Shown in pieces: positions 38,115 through 59,112 of a stretch of 64,000 nt of DNA. The stretch comes from Streptomyces sp. NBC_00525 (GTDB taxonomy: Bacteria; Actinomycetota; Actinomycetes; Streptomycetales; Streptomycetaceae): NCBI RefSeq assembly GCF_036346595.1, contig NZ_CP107834.1, positions 372,001 to 436,000 of the forward strand, written 5' to 3'. Position 1 is the first letter of the stretch. Every line of letters starts with the position of its first letter. Under the pieces are notes generated by a model. That model was given only the letters and a program-made list of their open reading frames with translations, did no database searches and had not been told where the DNA came from. Position numbers and translations under genes: made by a program.

Positions 38115-38327
38115 TCAGGCGTCCATCGACGCGGCGAGGGACCGGGGGCGCAGGTCGGTCCAGTGGCTCTCCACGTACTCCAGGCACGCCTCGCGGCTGT
38201 TCTCGTCGAGGGCGACGCTCCACCCGGCCGGTACGTCGGCGAAGGACGGCCACAGGGAGTGCTGTCCCTCGTCGTTGACCAGGACGAGGAAGCGGCCTTC
38301 GGGGTCGTCGAACGGGTTGGTGCTCAT
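38115..38327 (-). CDS. MbtH-like NRPS accessory protein
   Basis: A 70-residue protein that binds and activates NRPS adenylation domains. The family signature is complete: [24 protein letters not shown] and [27 protein letters not shown], in pieces [30 protein letters not shown] and [14 protein letters not shown]. It lies 46 bases after the ornithine monooxygenase gene on the same strand and should be co-transcribed with it under the iron box at 39801. Its partner is the NRPS at 42366-52340. Confidence 0.95.
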
Positions 38328-38373
38328 ACGGGGTGCCTCCGGGGTGAAGGTGGTGGGGAGGGGACGGGCGCGG

Positions 38374-39714
38374 TCACGGCATTTCGGCGACGGGACGCGG
38401 GGCGTCGGCGAGGGTCGCGCCGCCGCGGGCGAGGACGGATTCGAGTATGTCGCCGACCCGGATCGCGGTGTTGGACAGCAGCGACGAGGTGATGCCGTGC
38501 GTGTGCTCGGTACCGCCCTGGAGGTAGATGCCGGTGCGCAGGGCGGCGTCCGTGGTGAGGCGGTAGTCGCGTTCGACGCGTACGCGGCCCTCCTCGTCGC
38601 GCAGGCAGAGGTCGGCGACCTCGCCGAGCAGGCCGAGCGGGTCGGCCGGGAGGTAGCCGGTGGCGAGGACGACGACGTCGGCGTCCAGGAGGGTCTCCTC
38701 GCCGGTGACGAGTGACGTCACGGTGGCGCGGACCTTGTCCGGGGTCTCCTTGACGTCGGTGAGCCGGGACACGTTGAGGAAGCGCAGCCGCTCGGTGCCG
38801 AGGACCTTCTCGCGGTACACCTGCCGGTACAGATCGTCGATCAGGTCGATGTCCACCACGGAGTAGTTGGTGTTGCCGTGGTAGTCCATCAGCCGGCGCT
38901 TGACGTCGTCGGGGGCGGCGAAGTACTCGTCCACCGCGTCCGGGTCGAAGATCTTGTTGGCGAAGGAGCTGTCGTCGGCCGGGCTGTAGCCGTAGCGCGA
39001 GAACACCGCGCAGACCTCGGCGTCCGGGAAGGTGCGGTGCAGATACGCGACGTTCTCGGCGGCGCTCTGGCCGGCGCCCACGACGACGAAGCGGGAGGGC
39101 GAGGTGCCTTCCAGTTCACCGGCGCGGTTGAGGAGTTCGGAGGTGTGCCAGACGCGGTTGCCGCGCTCGACGCCTTCGGGCAGCCGGGGGCGCAGTCCGG
39201 TGCCGATGACGAGGTTGCGGGTGCGGTGGACGGTGAGGCCCTCTCCCGAACGCACCGTCACGTCCAGGTATTCGACGGCGCCGTCGTGCGGGACGGGGGC
39301 GACCCCGACGACCTCGTGGTCGTAGGAGACCAGGTCGGCCACGCGGGAGGCGGCCCACTCGAAGTACTCGTGGAACTCGACCCGGAGCGGGAAGAGGTTC
39401 TTGTGGTTGATGAAGTCGATCAGGCGTCCCCTGCTCTGCAGGAAGCAGAGGAAGCTGAACTCGCTGGCGGGATTGCGGAGTGTCACCAGGTCCTTGAGGA
39501 AGGAGACCTGCATGGTGGCGTCGTCGATGAGCATGCCGCGGTGCCAGCCGAAGGCCGGTTGCTGCTCGAAGAACTGGGCCGTCACCGCTTCTCGCGTCCC
39601 GGAGCGCGCGTTGTGCTCGCTGATCGCGATCGCCATGGCCACATTGGACGGCCCGAAGCCGATTCCAATGAGGTCGTGGACCGGTGCTGCGTCGCCAGGA
39701 CGAGCCTGTGACAT
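38374..39714 (-). CDS. L-ornithine N5-monooxygenase of siderophore synthesis
   Basis: FAD/NADPH enzyme that hydroxylates the side-chain amine of ornithine (or lysine), the first step to a hydroxamate. In 446 residues: FAD motif [15 protein letters not shown], substrate/FAD stretch [15 protein letters not shown] with FSFLCFL, NADPH motif [28 protein letters not shown] and the C-terminal VVLATGYLP. It is close to the coelichelin monooxygenase in layout. ATG 39714 follows GGGAGTGAC; upstream in-frame sequence is not protein-like. The iron box 39801-39819 lies 87 bases upstream. Confidence 0.95.
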
Positions 39715-39800
39715 GTCACTCCCATCGTGCGGGGAAGCCGCCAGTCGGATGTGGGGAAACGGGCGAGGAAAGGGCACGCCGAAGCAGCGGCCCCATGAAC

Positions 39801-39819
39801 TTAGGTGAGCCTAAGCTAA
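39801..39819. promoter_or_regulatory. iron box (DmdR/IdeR operator) of the monooxygenase-mbtH unit
   Basis: TTAGGTGAGCCTAAGCTAA agrees with the 19-bp consensus TTAGGTTAGCCTAACCTAA at 17 positions. It lies upstream of the leftward monooxygenase gene. Iron-loaded DmdR/IdeR should repress from it. Confidence 0.85.
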
Positions 39820-39906
39820 TCCGTCAACGCTGTCGATAGGCGCTATTCGGACACACTTGCCGCACGGACGGCCTCAACTGGTGCGCTTCGTGCGCCCGTT
39901 GCGAGA

Positions 39907-39925
39907 TAAGGTAAGGCTTGCTTTA
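39907..39925. promoter_or_regulatory. iron box (DmdR/IdeR operator) of the formyltransferase gene
   Basis: TAAGGTAAGGCTTGCTTTA is a weaker iron box, matching about 13 of 19 consensus positions, 37 bases before the rightward formyltransferase start. With the box at 39801 it makes a divergent, jointly iron-controlled region. Confidence 0.7.
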
Positions 39926-39962
39926 CTTGTCCGGCTCTGTCTCTACGTCGAGGAGGAACCCC

Positions 39963-40910
39963 ATGCGGGTCGTCATGTTCGGTTACCAGACCTGGGGGCA
40001 TCGCACCCTGCAAGCCCTGCTGGACTCCGAGCACGACGTGGTGCTGGTCGTCACCCACCCCCGGAGCGAGCACGCCTACGAGAAGATCTGGAGCGACTCC
40101 GTCGCCGACCTCGCCGAGGAGCACGGCGTCCCGGTCCTCATCCGCAACCGCCCCGACGACGACGAGCTGTTCGAGGCGCTGAAGGCGGCCGACCCGGACG
40201 TCATCGTCGCCAACAACTGGCGTACGTGGATTCCGCCGCGCATCTTCGCGCTCCCCCGCCGGGGCACCCTGAACGTCCACGACTCGCTGCTGCCGAAGTA
40301 CGCGGGCTTCTCGCCGCTGATCTGGGCCCTCATCAACGGTGAGAGCGAAGTCGGCGTCACCGCGCACATGATGAACGACGAGCTCGACGCCGGCGACATC
40401 GTCCGCCAGGAGTCCGTCCCGGTCGGCCCGCGGGACACCGCGACGGATCTCTTCCACAAGACCGTCGATCTGATCGCCCCCGTCACCACCAAGGCGCTCG
40501 CCCTGATCGCTGACGGGCAGACGGAGTTCACCCCGCAGGACCGCTCGCAGGCCACCTTCTTCCACAAGCGGGCCGAGGAGGACATCCGGATCGACTGGAA
40601 CTGGCCCGCCGAGGACCTGGAGCGCCTGGTGCGCGCCCAGTCGGCCCCGTACCCGAGCGCCTTCACCTTCCACCGCGGCAAGCGGATCGAGGTGCTGGCG
40701 AGCGTGGTCTCCGAGGGCCGCTACGGCGGCACGCCCGGCCGGATCTTCTACCGCGAGGGCGACGGCGTCGTGATCGTCGCGGGCGCGGACGCCCGCACCG
40801 GCCGCAACCGGGGGCTGGCCATCACCCGGGTCCGCACCGAGGACGGCCGCGAGCTGCCCGCGACGGAGTACTTCACCTCCATGGGCGGCTATCTGACCAG
40901 CCGTCCCTGA
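39963..40910 (+). CDS. N5-hydroxyornithine formyltransferase of siderophore synthesis
   Basis: Formylates the hydroxylated ornithine side chain using formyl-tetrahydrofolate, giving the bidentate hydroxamate. In 315 residues: N-terminal formyl transferase fold (MRVVMFGYQTWGHRTLQALL), the catalytic Asn-His-Asp region as NVHDSLLPKYAGFSPLIWAL, TAHMMNDELDAGDI with the active-site Asp, and a Fmt-type C-terminal domain from about 205 (DIRIDWNWPAEDLERLVRA). ATG 39963 follows GAGGAGGAA. It is divergent from the monooxygenase, and together they predict N5-formyl-N5-hydroxyornithine. Confidence 0.94.
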   Translation: MRVVMFGYQTWGHRTLQALLDSEHDVVLVVTHPRSEHAYEKIWSDSVADLAEEHGVPVLIRNRPDDDELFEALKAADPDVIVANNWRTWIPPRIFALPRRGTLNVHDSLLPKYAGFSPLIWALINGESEVGVTAHMMNDELDAGDIVRQESVPVGPRDTATDLFHKTVDLIAPVTTKALALIADGQTEFTPQDRSQATFFHKRAEEDIRIDWNWPAEDLERLVRAQSAPYPSAFTFHRGKRIEVLASVVSEGRYGGTPGRIFYREGDGVVIVAGADARTGRNRGLAITRVRTEDGRELPATEYFTSMGGYLTSRP

Positions 40911-40919
40911 ATCGGGCGG

Positions 40920-40960
40920 AGGGGGGCGGGGCGGCCATGCGACGGCCGCCCCGCCCCCCT
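40920..40960. terminator. strong bidirectional stem-loop terminator
   Basis: A perfect 17-bp GC-rich inverted repeat with a 7-base loop fills most of the 58-bp gap between the convergent formyltransferase and MFS genes. It ends both the short formyltransferase transcript and the 15-kb siderophore operon. Confidence 0.85.
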
Positions 40961-40968
40961 TCGTACGT

Positions 40969-42369
40969 CTAGGCCCCCTTCGGGGGTGTACGGGGCAGCC
41001 GGGTCGCCGCCGCCGCGGCGAACAGGCAGAACCCGAGCACCCACCAGAACGTGTCGCCGAACGCCGCGGAGACGTCCGCGCCCCGCTCCGTGAGCCGGCT
41101 CTCCAGCACCACCGCCAGGGCCGCCGTGCCCACCGAACCGCCCACCGTGTTCAGCAGGTTGAGCGCACCGGCGGCCCGCGGCAGCTGCTCCGGCTCGATG
41201 CGGCTGTAGACGATGTTCATCACCGGCGCGCCCACCATCGACATCCCGAAGCCGCGCACCACCAGCGCCGAGGCGATCACCGCGTCGGGCACCCCGTGGC
41301 CCAGCCAGGTGAACGGGGCCGTCCCGGCGAGGATCAGCACGATGCCCGCCACCACCAGGGTCCTCGGCGCCACCTTGACGATGGTCCGGTTGACGAGCAC
41401 CGAACCGGCCGCCGCCCCCAGCCCCTGGGGAGCGAGCAGCAGCCCCGCCTCCCACGCCGACATGGACCGGCCCGACTGGAAGTACAGCGGCAGCAGGAAC
41501 ATCGTGCCGAACACCGAGGCCCCCAGCACCACCAGCGCCAGCGCGGCGGCCCCGAACGGCGGCCGGGCGAACAGCCGGGGATCGACCAGCGGGGTGGCGC
41601 GCGTGCGCAGTCCGTGCGCGGTGAACGCGCCCAGCATCACCACACCGGCCACCACCCCCGCCGCAGCCGGGACCGTACGGCCGTGGGCGACCTCGGTCAG
41701 CCCGTACACCAGCACCGCGAGCCCCGGGGACAGCAGCAGCGCGCCCCGCAGGTCGAATGCGGTGCGCCCGGGGGCCGGGGGCACCACCGGCACATGGCGG
41801 CGGGCCAGCAGCATCGCGGCCGCGCCGATCGGCAGGTTGATCAGGAACAGCCACGGCCACGGCGCCACGGCCAGCACGGAGCCGCCGGCCAGCGGGCCGA
41901 AGACCGGTGACAGCAGCGGAACCACGGCGACGATGCTGATGACCTTCCCGGTGCGTCCCGGTCCCGCCACCCGGGCCAGCAGCGCCTGCCCGGTCGCCGG
42001 AAGCAGCCCGCCGCCCAGCCCCTGGATCACGCGGAACACGATGAGGCTGGTCACCGACCAGGCCGCCGCGCACAGCAGCGAGCCGAGCAGGAACACGCCG
42101 ACCGCCGCGAGCCAGACCCGCCGGCCGCCGAACCGGCCGGCCAGCCAGCCGGACGCGGGGACGGCGGCGACGACGGCCAGCAGATAGGCCGTGGTGACCC
42201 ACTGGATCTCGGCGACCGACGCGCCGAACTCCTCGGTGAGCCGGTCGAGTCCGACGCTGACGATGGTCGCGTCGAGCGAGGCCATGAAGGTGCCGAGGAC
42301 CAGGATGAACGCGACCCGCAGCAGATCCCGGTCCACGCGCCCGTCCGGTGGCGCGGTCGCCGCGGTCAT
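40969..42369 (-). CDS. MFS exporter, DHA2 (14-helix) family, probable siderophore export
   Basis: A 466-residue multidrug-type exporter with about 14 hydrophobic segments. It has the DHA2 markers [17 protein letters not shown] (motif D1), [10 protein letters not shown] (motif A-like), [15 protein letters not shown] and an antiporter motif-C-like [17 protein letters not shown] 42369 overlaps the NRPS stop (ATGA), so it is the last gene of the iron-controlled operon and most likely exports the finished siderophore. Confidence 0.92.
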
Positions 42370-45300
42370 CGGTCCTCCAGGAGGGCGCGCACGTCCGCGT
42401 CCAGGTGGTGCTCCAGGTTCCGCAGCAGCTCGACGAGCCGGTCCGCGAATCCGGTGACGTCCGTGCCGGCCCGGTGGGCGAGGACGCCCGTCCAGCCGTC
42501 GCCGTCCGGCATCACGGTCAGGGTCGCGGGGTGGTGGGTGGACTCCCGGAACCGGGTGGCGAGCACGGTCAGTCCGGGGGCGGGTTCGCGCAGCCGCTCG
42601 GGGTCGACCGGGTAGTTCTCGAACACCACCATGCTGTCGAACAGCCGGCGCCGGCCGGTGATCCGCTCCAGGTCGGCCAGGGCCACGTGGTGGTGCTCGA
42701 CCAGCTCGCGCTGGCGGGCCTGCAGGTCGGTGAGCGCGGCGGCCAGCGTGCCGTCGAGCCGGGCCCGCACCGGCACGGTGTTGGCCAGCAGGCCGATGAT
42801 CTCCTCCACGCCGTCCAGCTCCGGGGGCCGGCTGGAGACCATGGCGCCGAAGCAGACGTCCCGCAGTCCCGAGCGCCGGGCGAGCAGCACCGCCCAGGCG
42901 CCCTGGACCAGGGTGTTCGGGGTCAGGCCGCGTCCGGCGGCGAGCCGGGTCAGCCGGTCCACGAGCGCCGCGTCGAACGTGATGACCTCGGGCTCCTGCC
43001 AGGCCGGGCCGCTGTCGCCGCCGCCCAGGTAGTCGCCCTCGGGCAGCCCGTCGAGTTCGGCCGCCCAGGCGTCCAGGTCCGGTTGGTGCTCCGCGCACCA
43101 GTCGAGGTAGGCGGCGAACGGGACGGGGGCCGGCAGCTCGGGCGCGCGGTTCCCGGTGCGCGCGGTGTAGAGGGCGAACAGCTCGCCGAGGACGCGCGGC
43201 GCGGACCAGCCGTCGGAGAGGGCGTGATGGCTGGTCAGGACGAGGTCGGCGCGCTCGGGGCCGCGCCGGATCACGGTGATGCGGTAGAGCGGGCCGCGGG
43301 TGAGGTCGAAGGATTCGGCCAGGTCGGCGGCGAGCACCTCGTCGGCCGGGGCGTCGGTGACGCGGAACTCCGGCCGGGGCGCGGCGGGGACGACGGCGAA
43401 CGAGGCGGGGAAGACCGCGCCCAGGTTCGGGTGCCGGGCCAGCAGGTCGTCGCCCGCGCCGCGCAGCGCGTCGGTGTCGAGCGGGCCGGCGAGCGAGAAC
43501 ACCGACTGCACGGTGTACGGGTCGGGGCGCTCGGTGCGCGAGTGCCGCAGCATCACCTCCTGGAGCGGTGCGAGCGGCTGCACGGCGGCGCCCGGCCGGT
43601 CCCCGAGCGCGCCGGTTCCGGGCGCGTCGGCGAGCCGCAGCAGCGCGGCCTCCAGCTGCCCGGCCAGCTCCTCGATCTCCGTGCCGGTGAACAGCGCGGC
43701 CGGCCAGGTGATCCGCACGCCGAGCATGTCGTCACGGACCAGGGCGTTGACCATCAGGCTGTACGGGAGGGGCATCGGGCCGGAGCCGTCGGAGCCGAGC
43801 GGGTCGGCGTCCGGGGCCGGCTGCCAGGGCGTCTCCGTGTCGGGGGCGCCGGGGTACTGGCCGAGGTAGTTCCAGGCGATCTCCGGCCGGACCGGGTCGA
43901 GGAGCCCGGCCGCGGTGAGGATGCCGTGGCCGAGGCCGTCGCCCTGGGCGCGCAGCCGCTCGCGGACGGCCGGTACGTCGTCGGCGGCGGCGAGCCGGAC
44001 GGGATGGATCGCGGTGAACCAGCCCACGGTCTGGGAGAGGTCCACCTCGCGGGGCCGGCCGTGGCTCTCCAGGGCGACCAGCAGTTCCGGGGTGCCGCGC
44101 CAGTCGCCTACCGCCCGCGCCAGGGCCGTGAGCAGCACGGCGTCCGGGGTGGTGCGGTGGGCGGCCGGGAGGGTGGTGACCAGGGCGCGGGTGGCGTCCG
44201 CGCCGAGCCGGATCTCGTGGTGCGCGGCGGTGTCCACGGTGTCGCGGGCGGGGTCGAGCGGCCGGGTGAGGGGCGCGGTGGCCGTCATCCGCCGCCAGTG
44301 CGGGAGTTCGTGGCGCCGGTCGGCGTCGCGCAGGGTGCGGGCCCAGCCGAGGAAGGACTGGCCGTGCCGGGTGAGTGCGCCCCCGTCGTGGGCGTGCCGG
44401 AGGTCGTCCAGGAGGATGCGCCAGGACACCCCGTCGGCCACCAGGTGGTGGGCGAGCAGGACGAGCCGGCCGGGCCGGTCGGGTCCGGCGTCCACGTGGA
44501 TCGCGCGCAGCAGGGGGCCGGTGCGCGGGTCCATCGCGGCGCGTGCCGCCGCGATCGCGGCGTCGGCGGCGGCGCGCGGGTCGCCGCCCGCGGGGACGCG
44601 GGTCAGGACGTCGGCGCCGGTGACCTCGCCCACCGGCGGGATGCGCAGGACGTCGTGCGCGGCGCCGAGGCGGGCGCGCAGCACGTCGTGCCGGGCCAGC
44701 AGGGCGTCGAGCGCGGTGCGCAGGCGGTCCTCGTCGCCGCCGGCCGGTACGCAGACCTCGACCCACTGGCAGAAGCCGTCGGCGGCCCGGCCCGCGCGGT
44801 GCAGCAGGTCGCGCATGACCGGGGTCAGCGGGGCGTCGCCCACGGCCGGGGCGGCCTCGCCGACGAGGGCGCGGGCGCGGGCGGCGATTCCGGCGACGGT
44901 CTCGCCGTCGAACACGTCCTTCGGGCTCAGCCCGAGCCCCTGGCGGCGTACTCGGGAGACCAGTTGGAGGGAGACGATGCTGTCGCCGCCGATGTCGAAG
45001 AAGTTGTCGTCGGGGCCGATGTCGTCGCGGCCCAGGACGTCCCGGAACACGGCGAGCAGCAGTTCCTCCGCCTCGGTGGCGGGTTCGCGCCGGGCGGCGG
45101 AGCCGGTGGCGGGGGCGGGCAGCGCGGCGGCGTCCAGCTTGCCGCTCGGGCTGAGCGGAAGGCGGTCCAGGGGGACGAGCGCGGTGGGCACCATGTGGTC
45201 GGGCAGCCGCTCGGCGAGGTGGGCGCGCAGCCCGGCGGGGTCGAAGCCGGCGTCGTCGGCCGGGATGACGTAGCCGACGAGCCGGCCCTCGCGCAGGACG

Positions 45301-48300
45301 ACGGCGCAGGCGCGGACGTCCGGGTGGCCGGTGAGGACGGTCTCGATCTCGCCCAGTTCGACGCGGAAGCCGCGCACCTTGATCTGGTGGTCGGCGCGGC
45401 CGAGGAAGACCAGCTGGCCGTCGTGGCGCCAGCGCACCAGGTCGCCGGTGCGGTACATGCGGGTGCCGGGCGGGCCGTAGGGGTCGGCGACGAAGGTGCC
45501 GGCGGTGCGGCCGGGGCGGCCGAGGTAGCCGCGGGCCAGGCTGGGGCCGCCGAGGTACAGCTCCCCGGTGACGCCGACGCCGACCGGCTGGAGTCCGCCG
45601 TCGAGGACGTAGGCGCGGACGTTGGGGTCGGGGCGGCCGATGGGCAGCGGTCCGGCGTCGTCCGGGTCGTAGTGCCAGGTGGTGGAGTTGATGGTGACCT
45701 CGGTGGGGCCGTAGGCGTTGAACAGCGCCCTTCGGCCCCGGCCCCAGCGGTGGGCGAGTTCCGGGTCGAGGCGTTCGGCGCCGACGACGAAGAGCACGTC
45801 GGGGTCGACGGTGCGGTCGTCGGGCATGGCGGCCAGGAACGACGGCAGCAGGTTCACGCCGGTGACCCGGTGCTCGGCGATGTAGTCGAGGAGTTCGTCG
45901 CCGGGGACGCGGACCTCCTCGGGGGCGATGACGGAGGTCCCGCCGGACAGCAGCGGCACCATGGTCTGCCAGAACGCCACGTCGAAGCCGGTCGAGGCGA
46001 AGTGCAGATAGCGGTCGTGCTCGGTGACGCCGACGACCTCCTCCTGGAGGGCGATGAGGTCGGGCACGCCCCGGTGGGTGACGCCGACGCCCTTGGGGCG
46101 GCCGGTGGTGCCGGAGGTGTAGATGACGTACGCGAGGGCGTCGTCGGTGAGCCGGGCGCGCGCCTCGGCCGGGTCGGTGTCGGGTACGGAGGCCAGGGTG
46201 GCCGGGTCGTCGAGGCGCAGGACGGGCAGGTCGCGGTCGACGGGCAGTTCGGCGCCGGTGGTCACCACGGCCGCCGGCGCGATGTCGTCGAACATGTACG
46301 CGAGCCGTTCGCGCGGGTAGGCCGCGTCCATCGGCACGTACACCGCGCCGGCCTTGGCCACGCCGAACAGGGCGACGGTCATCTCGACGTCCCGGCCGAT
46401 GAGGACCGCGACGGGGTCCTGGGGCCGGACGCCGCGGGCGATGAGCGCGTGGGCGAGCCGGTTGGCCTGCCGGTCGAGTTCGTCGTAGGTGAGGCTGCGG
46501 TCGCGGCAGACCAGTGCCTCGGCGCCGGGCTTGCGGCGGACCCAGTGGGCGAACTCCGCCAGCCAGTGGCCGCGTTGCCGGACGGGGACGACCTCGGTGC
46601 CGGTGCGCAGGACGCGGGCCCGCTCGCCGGCGTCGAGGGTGGGCAGGACGAGCGCGGGCCGGTCCGGGTCGTCGGTGATCTCGCGCAGCAGGTTGAGGAG
46701 CCAGCGTCCGTAGTCGCGGACGGTGTCCCGGTCGAAGGCGCGGGGCTGGTGGCCGAGGCCGATGGTGATCTCGTCGCCGGGGATCACGATGACGGTGAGG
46801 GCGTAGTGGGTGGCGTCGGTGATGTCCACGCCGGTGAGGTCGAGGCCGGGGGCGAGCGGGGTGCGGGTGCGGCTGGAGAGCGGGAAGTTCTCCATGACGA
46901 GCATGGTGTCGAAGAGTTCGCCGATGCCGGCCGCCCGCTGGATGCCGGGCAGGCCCACGTGGTGGTGGTCGGCGAGGGCGACGCTCTCGGCGTGCACCCG
47001 GGCCATGAGGTCGGTGACGGTGCGCTGTGCGTCGTACCGGACGCGGACCGGGACGGTGGTGCCGAGCTGGCCGATCATCGACTCGACGCCGTCGACCTCG
47101 GCGGGCCGGCCGGAGACCGGGCAGCCGAACACGACGTCGCGGCGGCCGGTGAGCCGGCCGAGCAGCAGGCCCCAGGCGGTCTGCAGGACGGTGGTCAGGG
47201 TGACGCCCCGGTCGCGGGCGAAGGCGCGCAGCCGGTCGCTGAACTCGCGGCCCAGCTCGACGGTTTCGCGGCCGGGCCGTTCGGTGCCGGTGGAGGTGGT
47301 GGCGGGTGCCAGCCGGGTGGCGTCCTCGACGCCGGCGAGCGCCTCGCGCCAGGCGGTGAGCGAGGCCTCCCGGTCCCGGCCGGCCAGCCAGCGGAAGTAC
47401 TCCTGGAGGGGCGGGGAGACGGGTGCTGCGGGGCCGCCGCCGAGTTCGGCGTAGATCGCGAGGAGGGTGCGGCCGACGATGGGCATGGACCAGCCGTCGA
47501 GCAGGGCGTGGTGGTTGGTGATGACGAGCTTGTGCTCGGCGGGTCCGACGCGGGAGAGCAGGAAGCGGATGAGCGGGGGCACGGCCGGGTCGAAGGGGCG
47601 TTCCAGGTCGGCGCGGGCGGCCTCGGCGAAGTCGTCGTCGCGCCGCCATTCCAGGGCGACGCCGGCGGGTATCACCTGGATCACCTCGTCGCCGGCGGTG
47701 GCGAGGTGGACGCGCAGGGCGGGGTGGCGGCGCAGCAGTTCGCGGGCGGCGCGTTCCATCCGGTCGGGTTCCAGTTCGCCGGACAGGGTGGTGACGGCCT
47801 GGACGACGTAGACGTCGGTGTCCGTCTCGTCCCGTACCAGGGTGTGGAAGGAGAGTCCGACCTGGAGCGGGGTGGCGGGCAGTACGTCGCTGACGCGGCC
47901 GGTGCGTTCCAGGGCGTCGATGGTGTCCTGGTCGAGGTCCACCAGCGGCAGGTCACTGGGGGTGAGTCCGCCGTCGGTGTGCAGGGCGTGCGCGGCCAGG
48001 GCGTCCAGTGCGGCGGCCCAGGCGTCCTGGAGGGCGGTGACGGCGCCGTCACCGAGGATCTCGCCGGCGGCGGTCCACTCGACGGCGAGGCGGGGTGCGT
48101 CGCCCTCGTGGACGAAGCAGTTGAGGGCGAGCACCTGTTCCAGGGCCTTGGCGTCCGGTTCGGTCACCGAGAAGGCGTCGTGCTCGGGCAGCCGCCAGCC
48201 CTCGGCGGCCTGCGGGGCGAACCGGCCCAGGTAGTTGAGCAGGACGTCCGGCGGCGGGACCGCCGCGAGTGCGGGGCTCGTCTCCGGGTCGAGGTGGCGC

Positions 48301-51300: not shown

Positions 51301-52340
51301 CCGAGGTCGCGGGGCAGGTCCTCGCCCCGGTAGCGCTGGTGGTCGCGCATCTCCCGCATGGCGGCGGCGACCCGCCGGCTCAGCTCGCCGAGCCGGTCGC
51401 CGCCGCGCACGGTCACCCGCAGCGGCAGCACGTTGACCGCCATGGAGGGGGTGCGCAGGGCGGTGGAGCCGGTCCGGCACATCAGCGGGAGGGCGAAGAC
51501 GACGTCGGTGCGGCCCAGCATGCGGTGCAGGAAGGCGGCGTAGCAGGCGATCAGCGCCTCGCCCCAGGCGACGCCCTCGGCGGCGGCGAAGGCGCGCAGG
51601 GCGGCGGTCTCCTCGGGGCCGATCTCGGCGCGCGCGGTGAGCGTACGGGCGGGGGCGCCGCCGGCGGCGGGGCCGTCGTCGGTGCCGAGGTCGGGCAGCG
51701 GGGTGAAGCGTTCGACCCAGTAGGCGCGGTCCTCGGCGGCCCGGTCGCTCTCCCGGTAGGCGGTGTCCTCGGCGACGAGCGCCGCGAAGGAGCCGAAGTT
51801 GGCGCGGGGCGGCTCGGTGGCGCGGACGCGGGCGGTGTAGTGGGCGGCGGTGCGCCGGGCGAGCATGGCGGCGGTGTAGCCGTCGAAGACGAGGTGGTGG
51901 CCGAGCTGGGTGTACCAGACCTCGTGGTCGGAGAGCCTGATGACGGTACGCGCGTACAGCGGGCGGTCCGTCATGCCGCGGGTGGCCTCGGCGAGCCGGG
52001 CGCGTTCGGCGGTGACGTACTCGCGGGCCGCGGCGGCGGGGTCGTCCTCGGTGCTGAGGTCGATGACCGGGGGCAGGGCGACGGGGTCGGTGCAGACCGC
52101 CTGGCGCGGTCCGTCCGGGGTGTCGTACACCCGGAGCCGGAGGCTTTCGGCCTCCTCGGTGGTGGCCCGGACGGCGTGGGCGAGGGCGTTCGTGTCGACC
52201 GGTTCGCCGCCGGTGATCTCGATGACGTCGCCGACGACGTAGTAGGGCGAGTCGGGTTCGATGCGCTGGGCGTTCCAGATGCCGAGTTGGGCGCCGGTCA
52301 GGGGGAGAAGGCCGTCCGGGGACACGCTCGCGGTGGTCAA
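42366..52340 (-). CDS. two-module NRPS, C-A-T-E-C-A-T-E-C, siderophore peptide synthetase
   Basis: A 3324-residue peptide synthetase. Domains: C1 about 10-440 (HHLVFDG at 148; its layout, [13 protein letters not shown] and [14 protein letters not shown], is that of EntF's aryl-accepting C domain); A1 about 460-955 ([10 protein letters not shown] at 606); T1 (GGDSITA, about 989); E1 about 1040-1470 ([10 protein letters not shown] at 1158, NYLGRF); C2 ([10 protein letters not shown], about 1609); A2 about 1940-2415 ([10 protein letters not shown] at 2071); T2 (GGDSIVS, about 2453); E2 ([10 protein letters not shown], about 2631, NYLGQY); C3 ([10 protein letters not shown], about 3038) to the end. 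No third A-T and no thioesterase. By-eye pocket codes: A1 D-S-E-D-V-G-M-V-D-K (acidic, basic substrate such as Arg likely); A2 D-V-W-N-V-G-A-I-N-K (partly like the formyl-hydroxyornithine code DMENLGLINK). TTG start after AAGGAGAG, one base past the ATPase stop. Confidence 0.95.
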
Positions 52341-52341
52341 C

Positions 52342-53127
52342 TTACTCTCCTTGCAGGGTGGGGACGACCATCGGAGTTCCGGTCACGGGGTCCGGGACGA
52401 CGACGCTGGGCAGGTCGAACACGTCCTTGATCAGCGTGGCGTCCACGATGTCCGCGGGGTCGCCCTCGGCGACCACGGAACCGGCCTTCATGGCGATCAG
52501 GTGGTCGGCGAAGCGGCAGGCCTGGTTGATGTCGTGCAGTACGGCGACGACGGTGCGGCCCTCGTTGCGCAGCCGGGCGAGCAGGCCGAGCAGTTGGTAC
52601 TGGTGGGTGATGTCGAGGAACGAGGTGGGTTCGTCGAGCAGCAGGTAGGGCGTCTGCTGGGCGAGCACCATGGCCATCCAGACCCGTTGCCGCTGGCCGC
52701 CGGAGAGTTCCCGTACGAACCGGTCGGCGAGGTCGGCGACGCCGGCCGCGGCCAGTGCCCCGTCGACGGCCTCCTGGTCGCCGTCCGACCACAGGGCCAG
52801 CAGCGACTGGTGCGGGAAGCGGCCGCGGGCCACGAGCTGGCGGACCTTGATGTCCTCGGGCGCGGTGGGGTCCTGCGGCAGGAAGCCGAGGTGTTTGGCC
52901 AGCGCCTTGGTGCCGAAGGCGCCGACCTCGCGGCCGTCGAACTCGACGTGTCCGGAGTGCGGTTTCAGCAGCCGGACCAGCGCGCTGAGGAGGGTGGACT
53001 TCCCGCAGGCGTTGGGGCCGACGACGGCGGTGAACGCGCCGTCGGGTATGTCGAGGGTGAGCCGCGTGGACACGACCCGGTCTCCGTAGCGCAGGGTGAT
53101 GTCCCGCGCAGTCAGGCGTGCGGTCAC
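52342..53127 (-). CDS. FecE/FepC-type ferric-siderophore ABC transporter ATPase
   Basis: A 261-residue ATPase powering siderophore uptake. Walker A is GPNACGKST, the Q-loop region is [16 protein letters not shown], the signature is [12 protein letters not shown], Walker B is [12 protein letters not shown] and the switch His is in [10 protein letters not shown]. All match the FepC/FhuC subfamily. GTG 53127 overlaps the permease stop (GTGA) after AAGGAGGTGAGG. Its last codons contain the ribosome site of the NRPS, so the two are tightly coupled. Confidence 0.96.
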
Positions 53128-54119
53128 GCGCGCCTCACCTCCTTGGTCAGCAGCCAGATCAGGTAGCAGCCGCCGATCGCGGTGCTCACGACGCCCACGG
53201 GCAGGGCGACGGGCGCGAGCAGCATCTGGGCCAGCAGGTCCGCGCCCTGGAGCAGGACGGCTCCGGTCAGCGCGGCGGGGAGCAGGGGGATACCGGCGGC
53301 GCCCGCGAGCCGGCGGCCGATCTGCGGGGCGGCCAGCGCGATGAACGCGATGGGCCCGGCCACGGCGGTGACGGTGGCGGTGCAGCCGACGCCGACGAGG
53401 ACCATGAGCAGCCGCAGCCGGTCGAGTCCGACTCCGGTGGTGACGGCGATCGGGTCGCCGAGTGCCGCCTGGTGCATGGCGTGGGCGCGGGTGGTCATCA
53501 GGAGCAGCAGTACGGCGATGACGGTGAAGGGAATGCCCAGGTCCTCCCAGCCGACGCCGTTGAGCGAGCCGGCGCTCCAGCCGACGGCGGCGATCGCCAC
53601 CTCCAGTTCGGCGCGGAGCACGATCCAGGAGTTGATCGCGGTGATCATGGCGTTGACGGCGATGCCGATGACCACGAGCCGCAGCCCGGAGAAGCCGTGT
53701 TCGAGCGAGAGCAGGTAGATGGCGGCGGCGACGACGAGCCCGCCGGCCACGGAGCCGATCGCGAGCTGTGCGGAGGTGCCCGACAGTACGGTGATGGCGA
53801 CCAGGGCGCCGGTGTAGGCGCCGGCGTCGAGGCCGATGACGTCGGGGCTGCCCATGGGGTTGCGGGTGAGGTTCTGGAAGATGGCCCCGGCGACGCCGAG
53901 CGCGGCGCCGAAGACGAGGCCGGCCAGCACGCGCGGCAGCCGCCAGTCCCGGATCACCACGGAGTGCTCCGTACCGGTGAGGACGGCGAACACCCGTGCG
54001 GGGGACGACCATGACGCCCCGTAGCAGAGGCCCAGCAGGCCGAGGCCGAGGATCAGGGCGAGCAGTACGGCGACGAGCGCCACCGTGCGGCGTTCGGCGC
54101 GCAGTCCGAGCAGGTTCAC
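53124..54119 (-). CDS. FecCD-family ferric-siderophore permease
   Basis: A 331-residue permease with about nine to ten helices. FecCD family motifs: RLPRVLAGLVFGAALGVAGAIFQNLTRNPMGSPDVIG, seen as RLPRVLAGLVFGAALGVAGA and QNLTRNPMGSPDVIG, and GPIAFIALAAPQIGRRL in the second half. GTG 54119 and its stop both form GTGA overlaps with the neighbouring genes. It pairs with the permease at 54116-55138. Confidence 0.95.
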   Translation of the reverse strand: MNLLGLRAERRTVALVAVLLALILGLGLLGLCYGASWSSPARVFAVLTGTEHSVVIRDWRLPRVLAGLVFGAALGVAGAIFQNLTRNPMGSPDVIGLDAGAYTGALVAITVLSGTSAQLAIGSVAGGLVVAAAIYLLSLEHGFSGLRLVVIGIAVNAMITAINSWIVLRAELEVAIAAVGWSAGSLNGVGWEDLGIPFTVIAVLLLLMTTRAHAMHQAALGDPIAVTTGVGLDRLRLLMVLVGVGCTATVTAVAGPIAFIALAAPQIGRRLAGAAGIPLLPAALTGAVLLQGADLLAQMLLAPVALPVGVVSTAIGGCYLIWLLTKEVRRA

Positions 54120-55138
54120 AGCTCCCCCGCCCCGTGGCGGCGGACCGCCCAGATCAGCATGGGGCCGCCGAGGAACGCGGTGACGATGGCCACGGGGACC
54201 TCACCTGTGGGCAGCAGGACGCGGGAGGCGATGTCGGCCACCAGCAGCAGAACGGGCCCGAGCACCATGGTGTAGAGGATCAGCCAGGGTACGGAGCCGG
54301 CGGCGGGTTTGCGTACGAGGTGGGGCACGATCAGTCCGACGAAGAGGATGGGCCCGGCCACGGCCGTCGCCGCGCCGCTGAGCACGGTGATGAGGACGAG
54401 GGTGACGAGCCGGACCCGGCCGACGTGGGCGCCCAGGGTGTGCGCCACGTTGTCGCCGAGGGTGAGGGCGTTGAGGGCCCGGCTCAGCAGCAGCGCGGCG
54501 GCCAGCGAGACCGCGATCGCGGTCAGCGGCCATTCCAGCGGGGCCTGTTCGCGCCCGGCGAGGGTGCCGACGGACCAGAAGCGGTAGACGTCGAAGGTGT
54601 CGGGGAGCATGAGGCGCAGCCCGAGGGAGACGCCGCTGAGCACGGCGGTCAGCGCCACTCCGGTGAGGACCAGGCGCAGGGGCGAGCTCCGGCCGACCGC
54701 GGCGACCAGCAGTGCCGCGATCGCGGAGCCGACGACGGCGAAGCCGAGCTGGCCGGTCTGGCCGGAGGCCAGACCGATCGCGGACCCGATGGTGACGGCG
54801 AACCCGGCACCCGCGGTGACTCCGAGGATGCCGGGCTCGGCCAGCGGGTTGCGGGCGAGCGTCTGGATCAGCGCGCCGGCCACGGCCAGCGCGGCGCCCA
54901 CGGCGACGGCGAGCAGCGCGCGCGGTGCGCGTACGTCCCGTACGACGACGTGGTCGTCGGTGCCCGCGTAGTCGAACAGCGCGCGTACGACCTCGCCGGG
55001 GGCGACGTGGCGGGCCCCGACGCCCATGCTGAGGACGGCGAGTACGGCCAGCAGCACCAGTCCGCCGGCGAGGAAGGCGGTCCGGGAGACGGCCCGCCGG
55101 GTCCCCGCCTTCTCGGACGCGCGGCCCGCGACGGTCAC
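54116..55138 (-). CDS. FecCD-family ferric-siderophore permease
   Basis: A 340-residue permease with about nine to ten helices. Motifs: RAPRALLAVAVGAALAVAGA, LIQTLARNPLAEPGILG and GPILFVGLIVPHLVR, the usual FecCD set. GTG 55138 overlaps the lipoprotein stop (GTGA). It is the first of two permeases, so the importer has the common BtuCD-like heterodimer plus one ATPase gene. Confidence 0.95.
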   Translation of the reverse strand: MTVAGRASEKAGTRRAVSRTAFLAGGLVLLAVLAVLSMGVGARHVAPGEVVRALFDYAGTDDHVVVRDVRAPRALLAVAVGAALAVAGALIQTLARNPLAEPGILGVTAGAGFAVTIGSAIGLASGQTGQLGFAVVGSAIAALLVAAVGRSSPLRLVLTGVALTAVLSGVSLGLRLMLPDTFDVYRFWSVGTLAGREQAPLEWPLTAIAVSLAAALLLSRALNALTLGDNVAHTLGAHVGRVRLVTLVLITVLSGAATAVAGPILFVGLIVPHLVRKPAAGSVPWLILYTMVLGPVLLLVADIASRVLLPTGEVPVAIVTAFLGGPMLIWAVRRHGAGEL

Positions 55139-56136
55139 CGGTTCAGCAGCGGAGCGAGCGACTTGTCGATCGCGTCCAGGGTCATCAGGGCCTCGCCGTA
55201 GGTGGCGGCCTCGGTGTAGCGGTAAGGGAAGACCTTGCCGGCCTTGACGGCGGGCAGGTTCTTCCAGAGCTTGGAGTCCAGGACGTACTTGACGGACTCC
55301 GAGACGCTGCCGTCGGCGTTGACCGAGTACGTCAGGACGTCGGCCTCGCCGAACGCCTCGGGAAGCTCCTCGATGGAGGGGTATTCGCTGACCGCGCGGG
55401 AGCCCGGTCCGGGCTCCTTCACCTTGCCGTAGTAGGTGATGCCCAGGTCCTCGGCGACGTTGGTGCCCCAGGAGCCGTTGAACTCGCGCTGGAAGGTGCC
55501 CTTGGCGGTGTCGCCGTACGCGCCGACGTGGCCGAACTTGAGCTTGGGCAGGACGTCCTTGTACTTCTCCGCCAGTTCGGCGGCCTTGGTGTCGTACGCC
55601 TTCTTCTGGGCGTCGAACTGCTCCAGCGCGCCGGCGGCGTCGGCCTGCTTGCGGGAGAGGTCGCGCCAGGCGGACGGCACGCTGGGGCCGATCGCGACGA
55701 CGGGGGCGATGGATTCGAGCCGCTTCATGTCGATGTCGCCGAGCACGGGGGCCGGCACGCCGATGACGATGAGGTCGGGTTCGGCCTCGGCGACGGCCTC
55801 GTAGTTGGTCTCGGCCGCCTGCTCGCCCGCCACCTTGGTGAGCTTCTTGTAGGTGGCCAGGTCCTCCTTGTTCATCATCGGTTCGCCGCGCTTCCACGAC
55901 GAGATGCCGACCAGCGGTGCGTCGGCCTGGATGAGCGCGGGCACGGCGTAGCCGGTGGCCACCACACGCTTGGGGTGCGCCGGGATCTTGATCTTGCCGT
56001 TGTCCGCGGCGAACACCCGGGTCTTGCTCTTCTCCGAGGCGGAGTCCGACCCGCCGTCGGAGGACGACCCGCATCCGGCCAGTACGAGGGCCAGCGCGAC
56101 GGCGCCGACCAGGCCGGACGATCTGCGTATGGACAT
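55135..56136 (-). CDS. siderophore-binding lipoprotein (FecB/FepB-like)
   Basis: A 333-residue surface lipoprotein that captures the ferric siderophore. It has a signal with lipobox LVLAGC (Cys near residue 22), a Ser/Gly/Asp linker, and the periplasmic-binding fold: HPKRVVATGYAVPALIQADA, PDLIVIGVPAP, VAIGPSVPSAWRDL and GKVFPYRYTEAATYGEALMTLD. The latter two segments are typical of family members for hydroxamate or mixed siderophores. ATG 56136 follows AGGAGC. The iron box 56155-56173 sits just upstream, so this is the first gene of the operon (lipoprotein, two permeases, ATPase, NRPS, MFS). Confidence 0.96.
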   Translation of the reverse strand: MSIRRSSGLVGAVALALVLAGCGSSSDGGSDSASEKSKTRVFAADNGKIKIPAHPKRVVATGYAVPALIQADAPLVGISSWKRGEPMMNKEDLATYKKLTKVAGEQAAETNYEAVAEAEPDLIVIGVPAPVLGDIDMKRLESIAPVVAIGPSVPSAWRDLSRKQADAAGALEQFDAQKKAYDTKAAELAEKYKDVLPKLKFGHVGAYGDTAKGTFQREFNGSWGTNVAEDLGITYYGKVKEPGPGSRAVSEYPSIEELPEAFGEADVLTYSVNADGSVSESVKYVLDSKLWKNLPAVKAGKVFPYRYTEAATYGEALMTLDAIDKSLAPLLNR

Positions 56137-56154
56137 TCCGAAGCTCCTTGCTAC

Positions 56155-56173
56155 TTAGGTAAGGCTCACCTTA
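56155..56173. promoter_or_regulatory. iron box (DmdR/IdeR operator) of the uptake-NRPS-export operon
   Basis: TTAGGTAAGGCTCACCTTA is 19 bp upstream of the lipoprotein start, close to the TTAGGTTAGGCTAACCTAA type of consensus. It should control the 15-kb leftward operon down to 40969. Confidence 0.9.
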
Positions 56174-56231
56174 GTTGATGGCCTTTCGGCAGGACAACTC
56201 GGGGTGGCGGGGCCCCGGTCCGGCCGGTCGT

Positions 56232-57131
56232 TCAGTGGTCGTGCCCGTGCTCGTGGTCATGCCCGTGGTCGTGCCCGTGGTCGTGGTCGTCCTCGTCGAA
56301 GTCCGCGACGCCGCGCTTCCAGTAGCCGGTGATGTCGTAGTCCGCCTTGTCCAGGCGCAGTTCGTCCCGGACCCAGCGGCGCAGCGGCTTGATCTGCCCG
56401 GCCTCGCCGGCGACCCAGACGTAGGCCCGCTCCCCCTCGGGCACGGTCACCGCGGTCACGGCGCGGACCAGCGCGTCGCCGGAGCCGGCGGGCCGGTCGC
56501 CCCGGTGCAGCCAGCGCACCTCGAAGCCCTCGGGCGCGTCCAGTTCGATCTGCTCGTGGGCGCCCGCGACCTCGACGAAGGCCCAGCCCCTGGCCGTCCG
56601 GGGCAGCTCCTCCAGCCATCGCGCGACGGCGGGCAGGGCGGTGAGGTCGCCGACGAGCAGATAGCGGTCGTAGGTGTGGGGCACGATCAGTCCGCCGGGC
56701 GGGCCCGCGACATGGATGGTGTCGCCGGGCTGCGCCTTGCCGGCCCAGTCCGAGGCGAGTCCGCCCTCGTGCACGGCGACGTCGATGTCGATCTCGCCGG
56801 TGGCGGGGTCGTAGCGGCGCACGGTGTACTCGCGGGAGGTGGGCACCGGCCGGGGCCAGCGCAGCATCGACCCGTTGCGCTCGGGCAGCCGCAGGGTGCC
56901 GTCCGGCTCCCGGAAGATCAGTTTCACGTGCTCGTCGGGCGCGTGGGCCTCGAACCCCTCGGTTCCGGGGCCGCCCAGCGTCACGCGCAGCAGCCCGGCG
57001 CCGACGGGGGCCGTGCGTACGACCTCGGCCTCCCGGATGCCGATCGGGTAGCCGACCTTCTCGGCGTGCCGCCCCTCGCGCACCTCGGCGATCCGGGCCA
57101 GATGGCGGTCGCGGTGGTCGGTGCGGCTCAT
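56232..57131 (-). CDS. siderophore-interacting protein (FAD ferric reductase) with His-rich tail
   Basis: A 299-residue flavoprotein that reduces the ferric siderophore inside the cell to release iron. FAD-binding part (about 15-130): SREYTVRRYD, with the HEGGLASDWAGKAQPGDTIHVAGPPGG segment as EGGLASDWAGKAQPGD. The SIP NAD(P)H part (about 150-275) has YLLVGDLTALPAVARWLEEL and YVWVAGEAGQIKPLRRWVRDE. The last about 22 residues are Asp/His repeats (HDHGHDHGHDHEHGHDH), unusual for this family and likely to bind metal. ATG 57131 overlaps the aryl carrier stop (ATGA). Confidence 0.94.
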   Translation of the reverse strand: MSRTDHRDRHLARIAEVREGRHAEKVGYPIGIREAEVVRTAPVGAGLLRVTLGGPGTEGFEAHAPDEHVKLIFREPDGTLRLPERNGSMLRWPRPVPTSREYTVRRYDPATGEIDIDVAVHEGGLASDWAGKAQPGDTIHVAGPPGGLIVPHTYDRYLLVGDLTALPAVARWLEELPRTARGWAFVEVAGAHEQIELDAPEGFEVRWLHRGDRPAGSGDALVRAVTAVTVPEGERAYVWVAGEAGQIKPLRRWVRDELRLDKADYDITGYWKRGVADFDEDDHDHGHDHGHDHEHGHDH

Positions 57132-57367
57132 GCGCCCTCACCCGCCAGCAGCGTCTGCCAGTGGGCGAGTTCGGGCTGCTCGAAGAGGTCGGGGAACTCC
57201 AGCGTGGTCGCCCCCGCCGCACGCCAGCGCTCGACCAGAGTCATGATCCGCATCGAGTCGAGCCCGAGGTCGACCAGATTGTCGTCGGACGCGATCTCGC
57301 CGGGCTCGCAGCCCAGCAGTTCGGCGATGTCGGCCCTGACACGGTCGGGCGACAAGGTCGGACTCAT
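57128..57367 (-). CDS. stand-alone aryl carrier protein
   Basis: A 79-residue carrier. The phosphopantetheine site is LGLDSMRIMTLVERWR, with the Ser preceded by GLD and followed by the (R/M)-IM-L-x-E-R-W pattern of aryl carrier domains of EntB and VibB. It would hold 2,3-dihydroxybenzoate (or salicylate) for the EntF-like C1 domain of the NRPS. It is not fused to an isochorismatase. ATG 57367 follows AGGAG. Upstream in-frame sequence is Arg/Pro-rich and not homologous. Confidence 0.9.
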   Translation of the reverse strand: MSPTLSPDRVRADIAELLGCEPGEIASDDNLVDLGLDSMRIMTLVERWRAAGATTLEFPDLFEQPELAHWQTLLAGEGA

Positions 57368-57637
57368 CGGGGGTACTCCTTCGGGGGGTGGGCCGCCGGC
57401 AGGCGGCCGAAGCGGCGGTTCTACGGAGCCCGGCGAGGGGTCCGGTACGCGAACGGGCGCCCCGAGCGGGACTGTTCGCGGGATACGGGGGCGGCGGAGG
57501 CGCCGGCGGGCCCGCCGGGGAACCGGGGCGCGCGGCGGGGGATCACGGACGCGGCGCAGCGCGACGCGCGCGGCGTCGCCCGCCGTGGGGCGCATCGGCC
57601 TCCCCCTGATTCCACGCCCACACAGTCCCCCTCAAGA

Positions 57638-57656
57638 CAAGGCGAGGCTAACCTAA
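57638..57656. promoter_or_regulatory. iron box (DmdR/IdeR operator), leftward
   Basis: CAAGGCGAGGCTAACCTAA matches about 15 of 19 positions of the consensus; its right half AGGCTAACCTAA is perfect. It probably controls the aryl carrier and siderophore-interacting protein genes. Confidence 0.75.
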
Positions 57657-57770
57657 CATCGACAGGTGCGACACGGGCACCCCGCCCACCAACCGGGCGG
57701 CCGGAGTGCGCAGTTCGCGTACCGGACTCCACCGCACGCTTCTCGCCATCCCCTGCGCGAACAGGCAAAC

Positions 57771-57789
57771 TTAGGTTACCCTCACCTAA
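57771..57789. promoter_or_regulatory. iron box (DmdR/IdeR operator), rightward
   Basis: TTAGGTTACCCTCACCTAA matches 17 of 19 positions of TTAGGTTAGCCTAACCTAA. It lies upstream of dhbC and is the best iron box in the window, level with that at 39801. Confidence 0.9.
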
Positions 57790-57915
57790 CCTACCGTAGG
57801 GGCTGCTCCGGGTGAAGACCCGCGGCAGGCGTACCGCCGCACGGCCCGGCACAGCTCCTCCCCCGCACCTTCATCCCTGGCTCCGCAGGACGGGGCCATC
57901 GAGATCGGAGTCCTC

Positions 57916-59112
57916 GTGTCGCCGGCATCCCGAGCCGCCACGCACATACCCACGGCCCACCCGGCCACCGGAGCCGCCACCTCCCTCCTGGACGCCTACA
58001 CACCCGGCGCGCGCTTCCTCGCCACACCGGGGCGCACCCTGCTGGCCGACGGCCCCGCGCGCCAAGTGCCGCACGGCGCCCGCCCGGTGGACCAACGGGT
58101 GACGGCCGCCCTGGCCGAAGCGGCCGACGCCGGGCAGGACGCCCCGGTGGTACTGGGCGCGATCCCCTTCGACCACACCGCCCCGGCCGCGCTGAGTGTG
58201 CCCGAGAGGCTGCGCACCGCCCCGCCGCTCTCCAGCGACCCGCTCATCGCCCTCCCCTCGTCGCCGGCGGCCTCCCCCGACTGGGGCATCCGCCCGGTGC
58301 CGGAGCCGGACGTCTACGCGGCGGGTGTCGCCTCGGCGGTGGCCCGGATGTGGCGCGGCGAGTTCAGCAAGGTCGTCCTGGCCCGCACCCTCGAACTCAC
58401 CTCCCCCGCGCCGCTGGACGTGCCGGCCATGCTCCAGCGGCTGGCCCGCCGCGACCCCTGCGGCCACACCTTCGCGCTCCCCACCGGCCCCGGCCGCACC
58501 CTGATCGGCGCCAGCCCCGAACTCCTCGTCTCCCGCCGGGGCCGCCGGGTCGTCGCCAACCCGCTGGCCGGTTCCACACCGCGCAGCGACGACCTCGCCG
58601 AGGACGTGCGCCGGGCCGCCGCGCTCCTGGAGTCGGCGAAGGACCTCCACGAGCACGCCGTCGTGGTGGACGCCGTGCACCAGGCGCTCGCGCCGTACTG
58701 CTCCGGCATGACCGTGCCGCCCCGGCCGACCCTGACCCGTACCGCCACCATGTGGCACCTGTCCACCACGGTCACCGGCACGCTCACCGACCCGGCCGTC
58801 TCGGCGCTCACCCTGGCCTGCGCCCTGCACCCCACGCCCGCGGTGTGCGGCACCCCGACGGACCGGGCCCGGCAGGTGCTGGCGGAGACCGAGCCCTTCG
58901 ACCGCGGCTACTTCACCGGCATGGTCGGCTGGGGCGACGCGAGCGGCGACGGGGAATGGGTGGTCACGATCCGCTGCGCCGAGGCGGAGGAGCGCACCCT
59001 GCGCCTCTACGCGGGCGCGGGCATCGTCGCCGCGTCCGAGCCGGAGGCCGAGACGGCGGAGACCGCCGCCAAGTTCCGCACCTTCCTGAGCGCGGTGGGC
59101 GCCGAACTCTGA
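57916..59112 (+). CDS. dhbC: isochorismate synthase
   Basis: Converts chorismate to isochorismate, the first committed step to 2,3-dihydroxybenzoate. The 398-residue chorismate-binding enzyme has [47 protein letters not shown] (as [12 protein letters not shown] and [10 protein letters not shown]), [33 protein letters not shown] and [17 protein letters not shown], in the order of DhbC/EntC. GTG 57916 follows GGAG. An iron box lies upstream. The next steps, isochorismatase and dihydro-DHB dehydrogenase, are not in the window. Confidence 0.94.

Follow-up and report, generated by a model that had tools for sequence, protein, structure and literature searches.

Genes and regulatory features of the locus

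The window analysed here is a 64-kb stretch of a 7.1-Mb Streptomyces genome (C1:372001-436000; C1 coordinates are genome positions, all others count from the first base of the window). It carries a siderophore gene cluster at 38115-59112, running from the gene for an MbtH-like protein to dhbC, the same span that a first-pass annotation of the sequence had delimited. Taken together, the evidence makes it very probable that this is a Streptomyces form of the mirubactin (mrb) cluster, containing parts salvaged from two other siderophore loci, with mirubactin A as its product. The nearest named relatives are Streptomyces, the closest being Streptomyces sp. AC1-42W, whose cluster is almost the same as this one and whose terminal condensation (C3) domain is 99% identical. 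Gene families were assigned with Pfam and NCBIfam models, which recovered the monooxygenase, formyltransferase, MbtH, FecCD set and nonribosomal peptide synthetase (NRPS) named in the annotation, together with its aryl carrier protein (ArCP) and isochorismate synthase. The features are as follows.

38115-38327, minus strand: MbtH-like protein (PF03621, 9.6e-29); apparently the cchK end of a deleted coelichelin cluster
38328-38373: gap, putative deletion junction; relatives hold about 20 kb of coelichelin genes here, and the unalignable stretch reaches into the end of mono
38374-39777, minus strand: ornithine N-monooxygenase (mono), cchB-type (PF13434, 1.2e-106)
39801-39819: iron box, 16/19 (palindrome match)
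39907: weaker iron box, 13/19 (palindrome match)
39918-40910, plus strand: hydroxyornithine formyltransferase (fmt), cchA-type (PF00551, 6.7e-33)
40969-42363, minus strand: MFS exporter directly after the NRPS, start approximate (PF07690, 8.2e-52)
42366-52340, minus strand: NRPS, 3324 residues, start approximate (C1-A1-T1-E1-C2-A2-T2-E2-C3)
52342-53166, minus strand: ABC ATPase, ferric siderophore uptake (PF00005; the top NCBIfam matches, to enterobactin and FecE-type ATPases, fall below their cut-offs)
53124-54119, minus strand: FecCD permease (PF01032, 3.2e-72)
54116-55135, minus strand: FecCD permease (PF01032, 6.3e-81, within ORF 54116-56074)
55135-56136, minus strand: siderophore-binding protein (SBP; PF01497, 4.5e-13)
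56155-56173: iron box, 16/19 (palindrome match)
56232-57131, minus strand: siderophore-interacting protein (SIP), FAD reductase (PF04954, 4.1e-38)
57128-57367, minus strand: ArCP, 79 residues, the part conserved in relatives (PF00550, 6.3e-11)
57638-57656: iron box, 15/19 (palindrome match)
57771-57789: iron box, 16/19 (palindrome match)
57916-59112, plus strand: isochorismate synthase, dhbC (NF005380, 491.9 bits against a cut-off of 486)

Some open reading frames (ORFs) in this region were set aside. In ORF 57128-57595 the Pfam PP-binding match covers residues 84-144 and the last 79 residues are the conserved ArCP; the N-terminal extension is taken as a start-site artefact, as only 46-56% of the length was matched in 8 of the 10 relatives with a match and its composition is non-coding-like. 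ORF 40889-42202 (minus strand) is in the wrong frame, the true gene being the MFS exporter at 40969-42363 (minus strand), and a conserved "unknown gene" at 41213-42187 (plus strand), matched in mrb relatives, is the antisense frame of the same exporter.

The iron boxes proposed by the annotation are well above background. At a threshold of ≥13/19 to the 19-base IdeR/DmdR palindrome, the 64 kb contain six matches (two overlapping), whereas 20 mononucleotide shuffles gave 0.3 on average. All six fall between 39.8 and 57.8 kb, at sites between mono and fmt, before the SBP gene and between the ArCP gene and dhbC, which points to regulation of the cluster by an IdeR/DmdR-type repressor.

Domain architecture and predicted substrates of the NRPS

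The NRPS comprises five condensation-type, two adenylation (A) and two thiolation (T) domains, read as C-A-T-E-C-A-T-E-C, where E is an epimerisation domain; no thioesterase domain was found within 42366-52340. This thioesterase-free layout is common to the window NRPS, that of Actinosynnema mirum and those of four other loci. The domains on which the substrate assignment depends are given below.

51006-52340, minus strand: C1, starter (aryl-accepting) condensation domain (tree with EntF and DhbF-type domains, support 1.0; PDB matches)
49506-50978, minus strand: A1, alignment-based code DSEDVGMVD, read as Arg
45111-46598, minus strand: A2, alignment-based code DVWNVGAIN, read as formyl-hydroxyornithine
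42369-43589, minus strand: C3, terminal condensation domain after an epimerase, HHxxxDG intact, sister of C2

The nine-residue A-domain codes were read through alignment, with EntF as a control that returned DVWHFSLVD, the serine code. A set of 48 named loci was retained from 79 by setting aside 31 at 37-44% identity. Both codes could be read in 46 of the 48, all with the same pattern as the window; the other two (L094 and L133) have shorter open frames and yielded A2 only. The HHxxxDG motif of the terminal C domain is kept in all 48. The A1 codes differ slightly across the family (M, I, L or A at position 7; D or T at the last position), a variation that might suggest a new hybrid siderophore whose residues differ from, or outnumber, those of mirubactin. 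We regard such a product as extremely unlikely, as the NRPS has only two A domains and its codes, order and domain layout match those of a characterised producer.

The annotation also held that the NRPS starts with an EntF-like C domain, a point that could be examined by phylogeny. We built a FastTree phylogeny of 90 C and E domains (part of those of the window genome, five mrb relatives, EntF and four DhbF-type proteins), in which labels were assigned by position, without an independently labelled post-epimerase reference, and in which the "postE" labels are wrong for the NRPS at C1:5832 kb, where A and T motifs were missed. C1 shares a clade of support 1.0 with the DhbF-type starters, EntF and three domains that open other NRPSs of the same genome; inside it the branches are poorly supported (0.26 where EntF joins C1, 0.40 elsewhere). 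Consistent with this placement, the eight best PDB sequences for C1 include CDA, EntF, ObiF1 and VibH, which have starter-type C domains, and ordinary elongation C domains score far lower.

C3 behaves differently. It is the sister (0.927) of C2, which follows E1, and its best PDB matches are the elongation-type McyB, bacitracin synthase 3 and PvdL. It thus appears to be a duplicate C domain, expected to accept a D-peptidyl chain as its donor. A role as a second starter domain using DHB-ArCP (DHB, 2,3-dihydroxybenzoate) is not favoured, given its grouping with C2 away from the starter clade and its elongation-type PDB matches. No module lies downstream of C3, and a conserved terminal C domain after an epimerase, in a pathway whose product bears an acylguanidine, poses an enzymatic question in its own right.

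Comparison with characterised mirubactin clusters

The annotation had named mirubactin as the closest precedent, and the comparison bears this out. In A. mirum DSM 43827 the genes are ordered MFS, NRPS, ABC, FecD, FecC, SBP, SIP, ArCP, dhbB, dhbE, dhbC, dhbA, and the window cluster is collinear with this row from the MFS exporter to the ArCP. The two NRPSs, 66.1% identical across 3274 aligned positions, have the same domain order and near-identical codes (DSDDVGAVD for A1 and DVWNVGAVN for A2 in A. mirum), and the exporters, in the same place, are 69% identical. The clusters differ at both ends. In A. mirum dhbB-dhbE-dhbC-dhbA lie in the cluster on the same strand as the ArCP gene, whereas dhbA, dhbE and dhbB are remote in the window genome. 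Conversely, no monooxygenase, formyltransferase or MbtH match was found in the 55 kb searched in A. mirum, whereas mono and fmt adjoin the cluster in the window.

PMC9609785 gives mirubactin A the formula C26H32N6O11, assigns D configuration to both ornithine-type residues and describes mirubactin C as missing the guanidine group and one of the DHB units. Mirubactin A is grouped there with the chlorocatechelins, and the cited chlorocatechelin title names an acylguanidine. By our own arithmetic, two DHB, one Arg and one formyl-hydroxyornithine less three H2O give the same formula, and the two E domains of the NRPS fit the two D-residues. The predicted product is therefore likely to be mirubactin A, built from two DHB units, D-Arg (as an acylguanidine) and one D-formyl-hydroxyornithine. 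The annotation had proposed a DHB-capped peptide with one or more formyl-hydroxyornithine units and D-residues; the cap is supported by the starter clade of C1, while the codes and the formula narrow the rest to a single formyl-hydroxyornithine, two DHB and Arg as the first residue.

The same paper reports mirubactin A from Streptomyces drozdowiczii MDA8-470, where the dhb operon lies about 130 kb from mrb and mrb sits beside coelichelin genes. Judged from that published description, the S. drozdowiczii mrb borders a coelichelin cluster, whereas the window locus lacks the coelichelin core.

Proposed supply of dihydroxybenzoate from two loci

The genes for the DHB-AMP ligase, DHB dehydrogenase and isochorismatase (dhbE, dhbA and dhbB) were not found in the cluster at 38115-59112. 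Only dhbC is inside it, in contrast to A. mirum, where all DHB genes are, and the window cluster is not self-sufficient for DHB. A single gene in the genome passes the DHB-AMP ligase cut-off (C1:537803-539485, also delimited as C1:537833-539413; 737 bits, the next 227). It belongs to a remote operon at C1:536882-540152, 105.8 kb from the end of the window dhbC, consisting of dhbA (536882-537718), dhbE and dhbB (ending at 540152), with an iron box (16/19) just before dhbA. This operon has no dhbC, and the window copy is the sole genome match at E≤1e-60. The window dhbC and the remote dhbA-E-B thus make up a complete 2,3-DHB pathway in the genome. Carrying the DHB genes in the cluster is not a defining feature of mrb, as S. 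drozdowiczii also splits them (PMC9609785). No remnants of dhbA or dhbE above chance were seen beside the window dhbC (best E 0.15).

The setting of the remote operon suggests where it came from. In a related genome, G354, genes for an SLT protein and a helicase enclose dhbA-C-E-B, a starter-type NRPS and FecCD/ABC genes, a locus that we call griseobactin-type by gene content only; A1277 (G322) has the same SLT-helicase locus, with only parts of the uptake genes matched. The dhbA-E-B of the window genome sits between these same flanks, without the NRPS, dhbC and uptake genes, and the best genome matches to the DhbF-type NRPS of the G354 locus reach only 37-42%. Shared flanks and the lack of a close NRPS match mark the remote operon, on sequence comparison, as the probable remnant of a griseobactin-type locus that is complete in relatives. 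AC1-42W has the same split, with its dhb genes 109 kb apart, and so has OfavH-34-F, on separate contigs; both show the same flanks and an iron box before dhbA. Across three strains (L012, L229 and L230) the dhbA-E-B relic keeps its order, its flanks and the iron box.

Probable remnants of a coelichelin cluster

The "coelichelin-like arrangement" described by the annotation has a direct explanation: the genes behind it look like the leftover of a coelichelin cluster. In G354, mrb-MFS-fmt-mono is followed by two FecCD genes, ABC genes, a 3643-residue NRPS, further genes, MbtH, pyruvate carboxylase and IclR, which is the coelichelin (cch) order of S. coelicolor SCO0489-0499. The one A-domain code readable by motif in the 3643-residue NRPS is DMENLGLIN, presumably the coelichelin hydroxyornithine code. 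The MbtH homologue lies 20 kb from mono in G354, behind that NRPS; in the window 46 bases separate mono from MbtH, and the outer flank is unchanged. The fmt, mono and MbtH genes correspond to the end genes of cch, and the window genome has no ortholog of the three-module CchH-type NRPS at 1e-100. At that threshold a C domain of the G354 coelichelin-type NRPS was matched in 7 of 14 genomes, G354 and G349 included, and found no match in the window genome, AC1-42W, OfavH-34-F, A1277, WC-3549, G226 and G215. These three genes therefore look like the ends of a coelichelin cluster whose core of about 20 kb has been deleted.

The flanks of the window junction match positions 366 and 20469 of the G354 block, and those of A1277 positions 477 and 20240. 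In separate trees A1277 groups with G354, apart from the window genome, AC1-42W and OfavH-34-F (mono 0.994, helicase 0.996, dhbE 0.987). The A2-domain tree lacks this pair, placing A1277 nearer col6 and the window genome (0.688), and in the fmt tree the pair carries no support value. On balance, the different endpoints and the placement of A1277 suggest that there were probably two independent deletions of the coelichelin core among the relatives, each sparing the same three genes. G349 is the reverse case, in which a coelichelin-type cluster is kept and the mrb NRPS lost.

Taken further, and with moderate confidence, we propose that mirubactin pathways in Streptomyces have repeatedly been rebuilt by dismantling neighbouring siderophore clusters while sparing the genes that mirubactin needs. 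Here these would be parts of three loci: the mrb core, the two ends left by a coelichelin cluster after loss of its core (at least two independent deletions among relatives), and a griseobactin relic of three genes whose missing dhbC is supplied by mrb.

Partition of dhb genes among relatives, and constraint

Read within the stretches fetched around the mrb and remote dhb loci, the relatives form a graded series in how their DHB genes are divided between two loci. All of dhbA, B, C and E lie beside mrb in S. atratus OK807, S. chumphonensis (G226), G215 and A. mirum, and dhbA, C and E do so in G321, where no dhbB was found in the stretch. In SirexAA-E, dhbA and dhbC are beside mrb, with dhbC, E and B elsewhere, and in WC-3549 the same pair is accompanied by dhbE and B elsewhere. 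S. atroolivaceus (G338) and G091 have dhbC beside mrb plus a full remote set, and col6 has dhbC beside mrb and C, E and B remote, with no dhbA found. In G354, A1277, S. silvae (G154) and G171 there is no dhb gene beside mrb in the stretch examined. G016, G068 and G383, whose dhb sets are different or mixed, were left out of the series, which does not cover the mrb region of S. halstedii. The mrb NRPS of G383 (L073, G383:C35) looks recombined, C1 and part of A1 matching at only 37-40% and a second monooxygenase/formyltransferase pair lying upstream; either two siderophore NRPSs have become fused here or the assembly is faulty.

A cluster that has lost dhbA, dhbE and dhbB, keeping only dhbC, might be defunct and make no capped product, the remote genes serving something else, such as the other starter-C NRPSs that exist in the genome. 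We consider this very unlikely. Ratios of non-synonymous to synonymous substitution (dN/dS), from the single pair of the window genome and OfavH-34-F by a simple counting method, indicate that the cluster genes measured (0.11-0.32) and the remote set (0.13-0.40) are both under constraint. In the window the values are 0.19 for dhbC, 0.15 for mono, 0.11 for fmt, 0.29 for MbtH, 0.24 for the SBP, 0.11 for the SIP and 0.15 for FecD, with 0.32, 0.27 and 0.23 for the C3, A2 and C1 domains of the NRPS. The remote genes give 0.40 (dhbA), 0.13 (dhbE) and 0.37 (dhbB), dhbA and dhbB being looser than the flanking helicase (0.17). The remote set also keeps its iron box, and a split cluster is productive in S. 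drozdowiczii (PMC9609785). In G349, where most of the mrb NRPS is lost and only its tail was found, the first half of dhbA was not found and dhbE matched over 506 codons for 551 residues. Such decay would fit retention of the relic for the sake of mirubactin, although it may instead reflect a sequencing fault in the assembly.

C3 has relatives (E≤1e-80) in 15 of 391 genomes of the order, the window genome included, of which one is the G349 remnant and one is only 46% identical, and in 4 of 394 genomes of the class, again including the window genome. A C3 profile at 1e-100 was matched in 52 of 297 genomes of the family of G618, the family of the A. mirum genome.

Proposed biosynthesis and points against it

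Under iron starvation, an IdeR/DmdR-type repressor would leave the iron boxes and the genes would be expressed. The monooxygenase and formyltransferase would yield N5-formyl-N5-hydroxyornithine, and window DhbC together with remote DhbA, DhbB and DhbE would make DHB, loaded on the window ArCP. C1-A1-T1-E1 would join DHB to Arg and C2-A2-T2-E2 add formyl-hydroxyornithine, both residues being epimerised to D. A second DHB would be placed on the Arg guanidine and the chain released as a free acid without a thioesterase domain, steps for which C3 and/or repeated action of C1 are the candidates. The MFS protein would export mirubactin A, and the FecCD-type uptake system and SIP reductase would recover the iron. 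By origin the pathway would combine an mrb core with what was salvaged from either end of a coelichelin cluster, and it would draw on what is left of a griseobactin-type locus.

Several points weigh against this assignment. The window dhbC is transcribed away from the ArCP gene, whereas the dhb genes of A. mirum run with it. Other starter-like NRPSs of the genome (C1:6468 kb and C1:5859 kb) could use the remote dhb genes, and AC1-42W has a second dhbE-like gene, 52% identical. Two further strong ornithine monooxygenase family matches (C1:1321542 and C1:4464188) also rule out the notion that the window holds the only ornithine hydroxylase. Arg is the most likely A1 residue, as judged by orthology, the formula of mirubactin and a table of A-domain codes, and mirubactin A itself is predicted from sequence. 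The product might instead be chlorocatechelin A, in which the DHB units of this scaffold are chlorinated, or some other tailored congener. No halogenase is among the genes identified at 38-59 kb, to which the search for one was confined, and the gene set matches A. mirum mrb, so that we hold a chlorinated or otherwise tailored product to be very unlikely and retain mirubactin A.

If correct, the salvage of parts would amount to a natural experiment on how biosynthetic clusters lose genes reciprocally, and mining this genome cluster by cluster would misread the product. The locus shows why cluster tools can mis-file such cases, as part of it resembles coelichelin and dhb genes are missing. Chemically, the product is most likely a known siderophore and less novel than the annotation suggested. 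Qinichelin is reportedly another peptide than mirubactin. By its title, the study of qinichelin in Streptomyces sp. MBT76 concerns a catecholate-hydroxamate siderophore with intertwined precursor supply from separate clusters. For S. drozdowiczii, a mirubactin cluster that adjoins coelichelin genes and has its dhb genes elsewhere has already been described (PMC9609785). What is new here is the reading of the locus as salvaged parts of three siderophore loci; no salvage or reciprocal-loss reading was met in the literature searched on mirubactin, griseobactin and acylguanidine siderophore biosynthesis, a search in which subscription papers were mostly not covered.

Neighbouring and related loci

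A gene for a PlsC-type acyltransferase (window 59143-60267) adjoins dhbC, and pieces of it also occur where mrb ends in col6 and next to what remains of mrb in G349, which marks the cluster boundary. A separate NRPS cluster (L001/L002, C1:441474-456820) begins 5 kb beyond the window. Three of its C domains each pair (support 1.0) with one from a second cluster at C1:6684-6699 kb, with 72% DNA identity over 12 kb, indicating that the two are paralogous NRPS clusters in one genome. Finally, the NRPS region at C1:4408-4465 kb, with its strong ornithine/lysine monooxygenase match at 4464188, is possibly a second hydroxamate siderophore locus.

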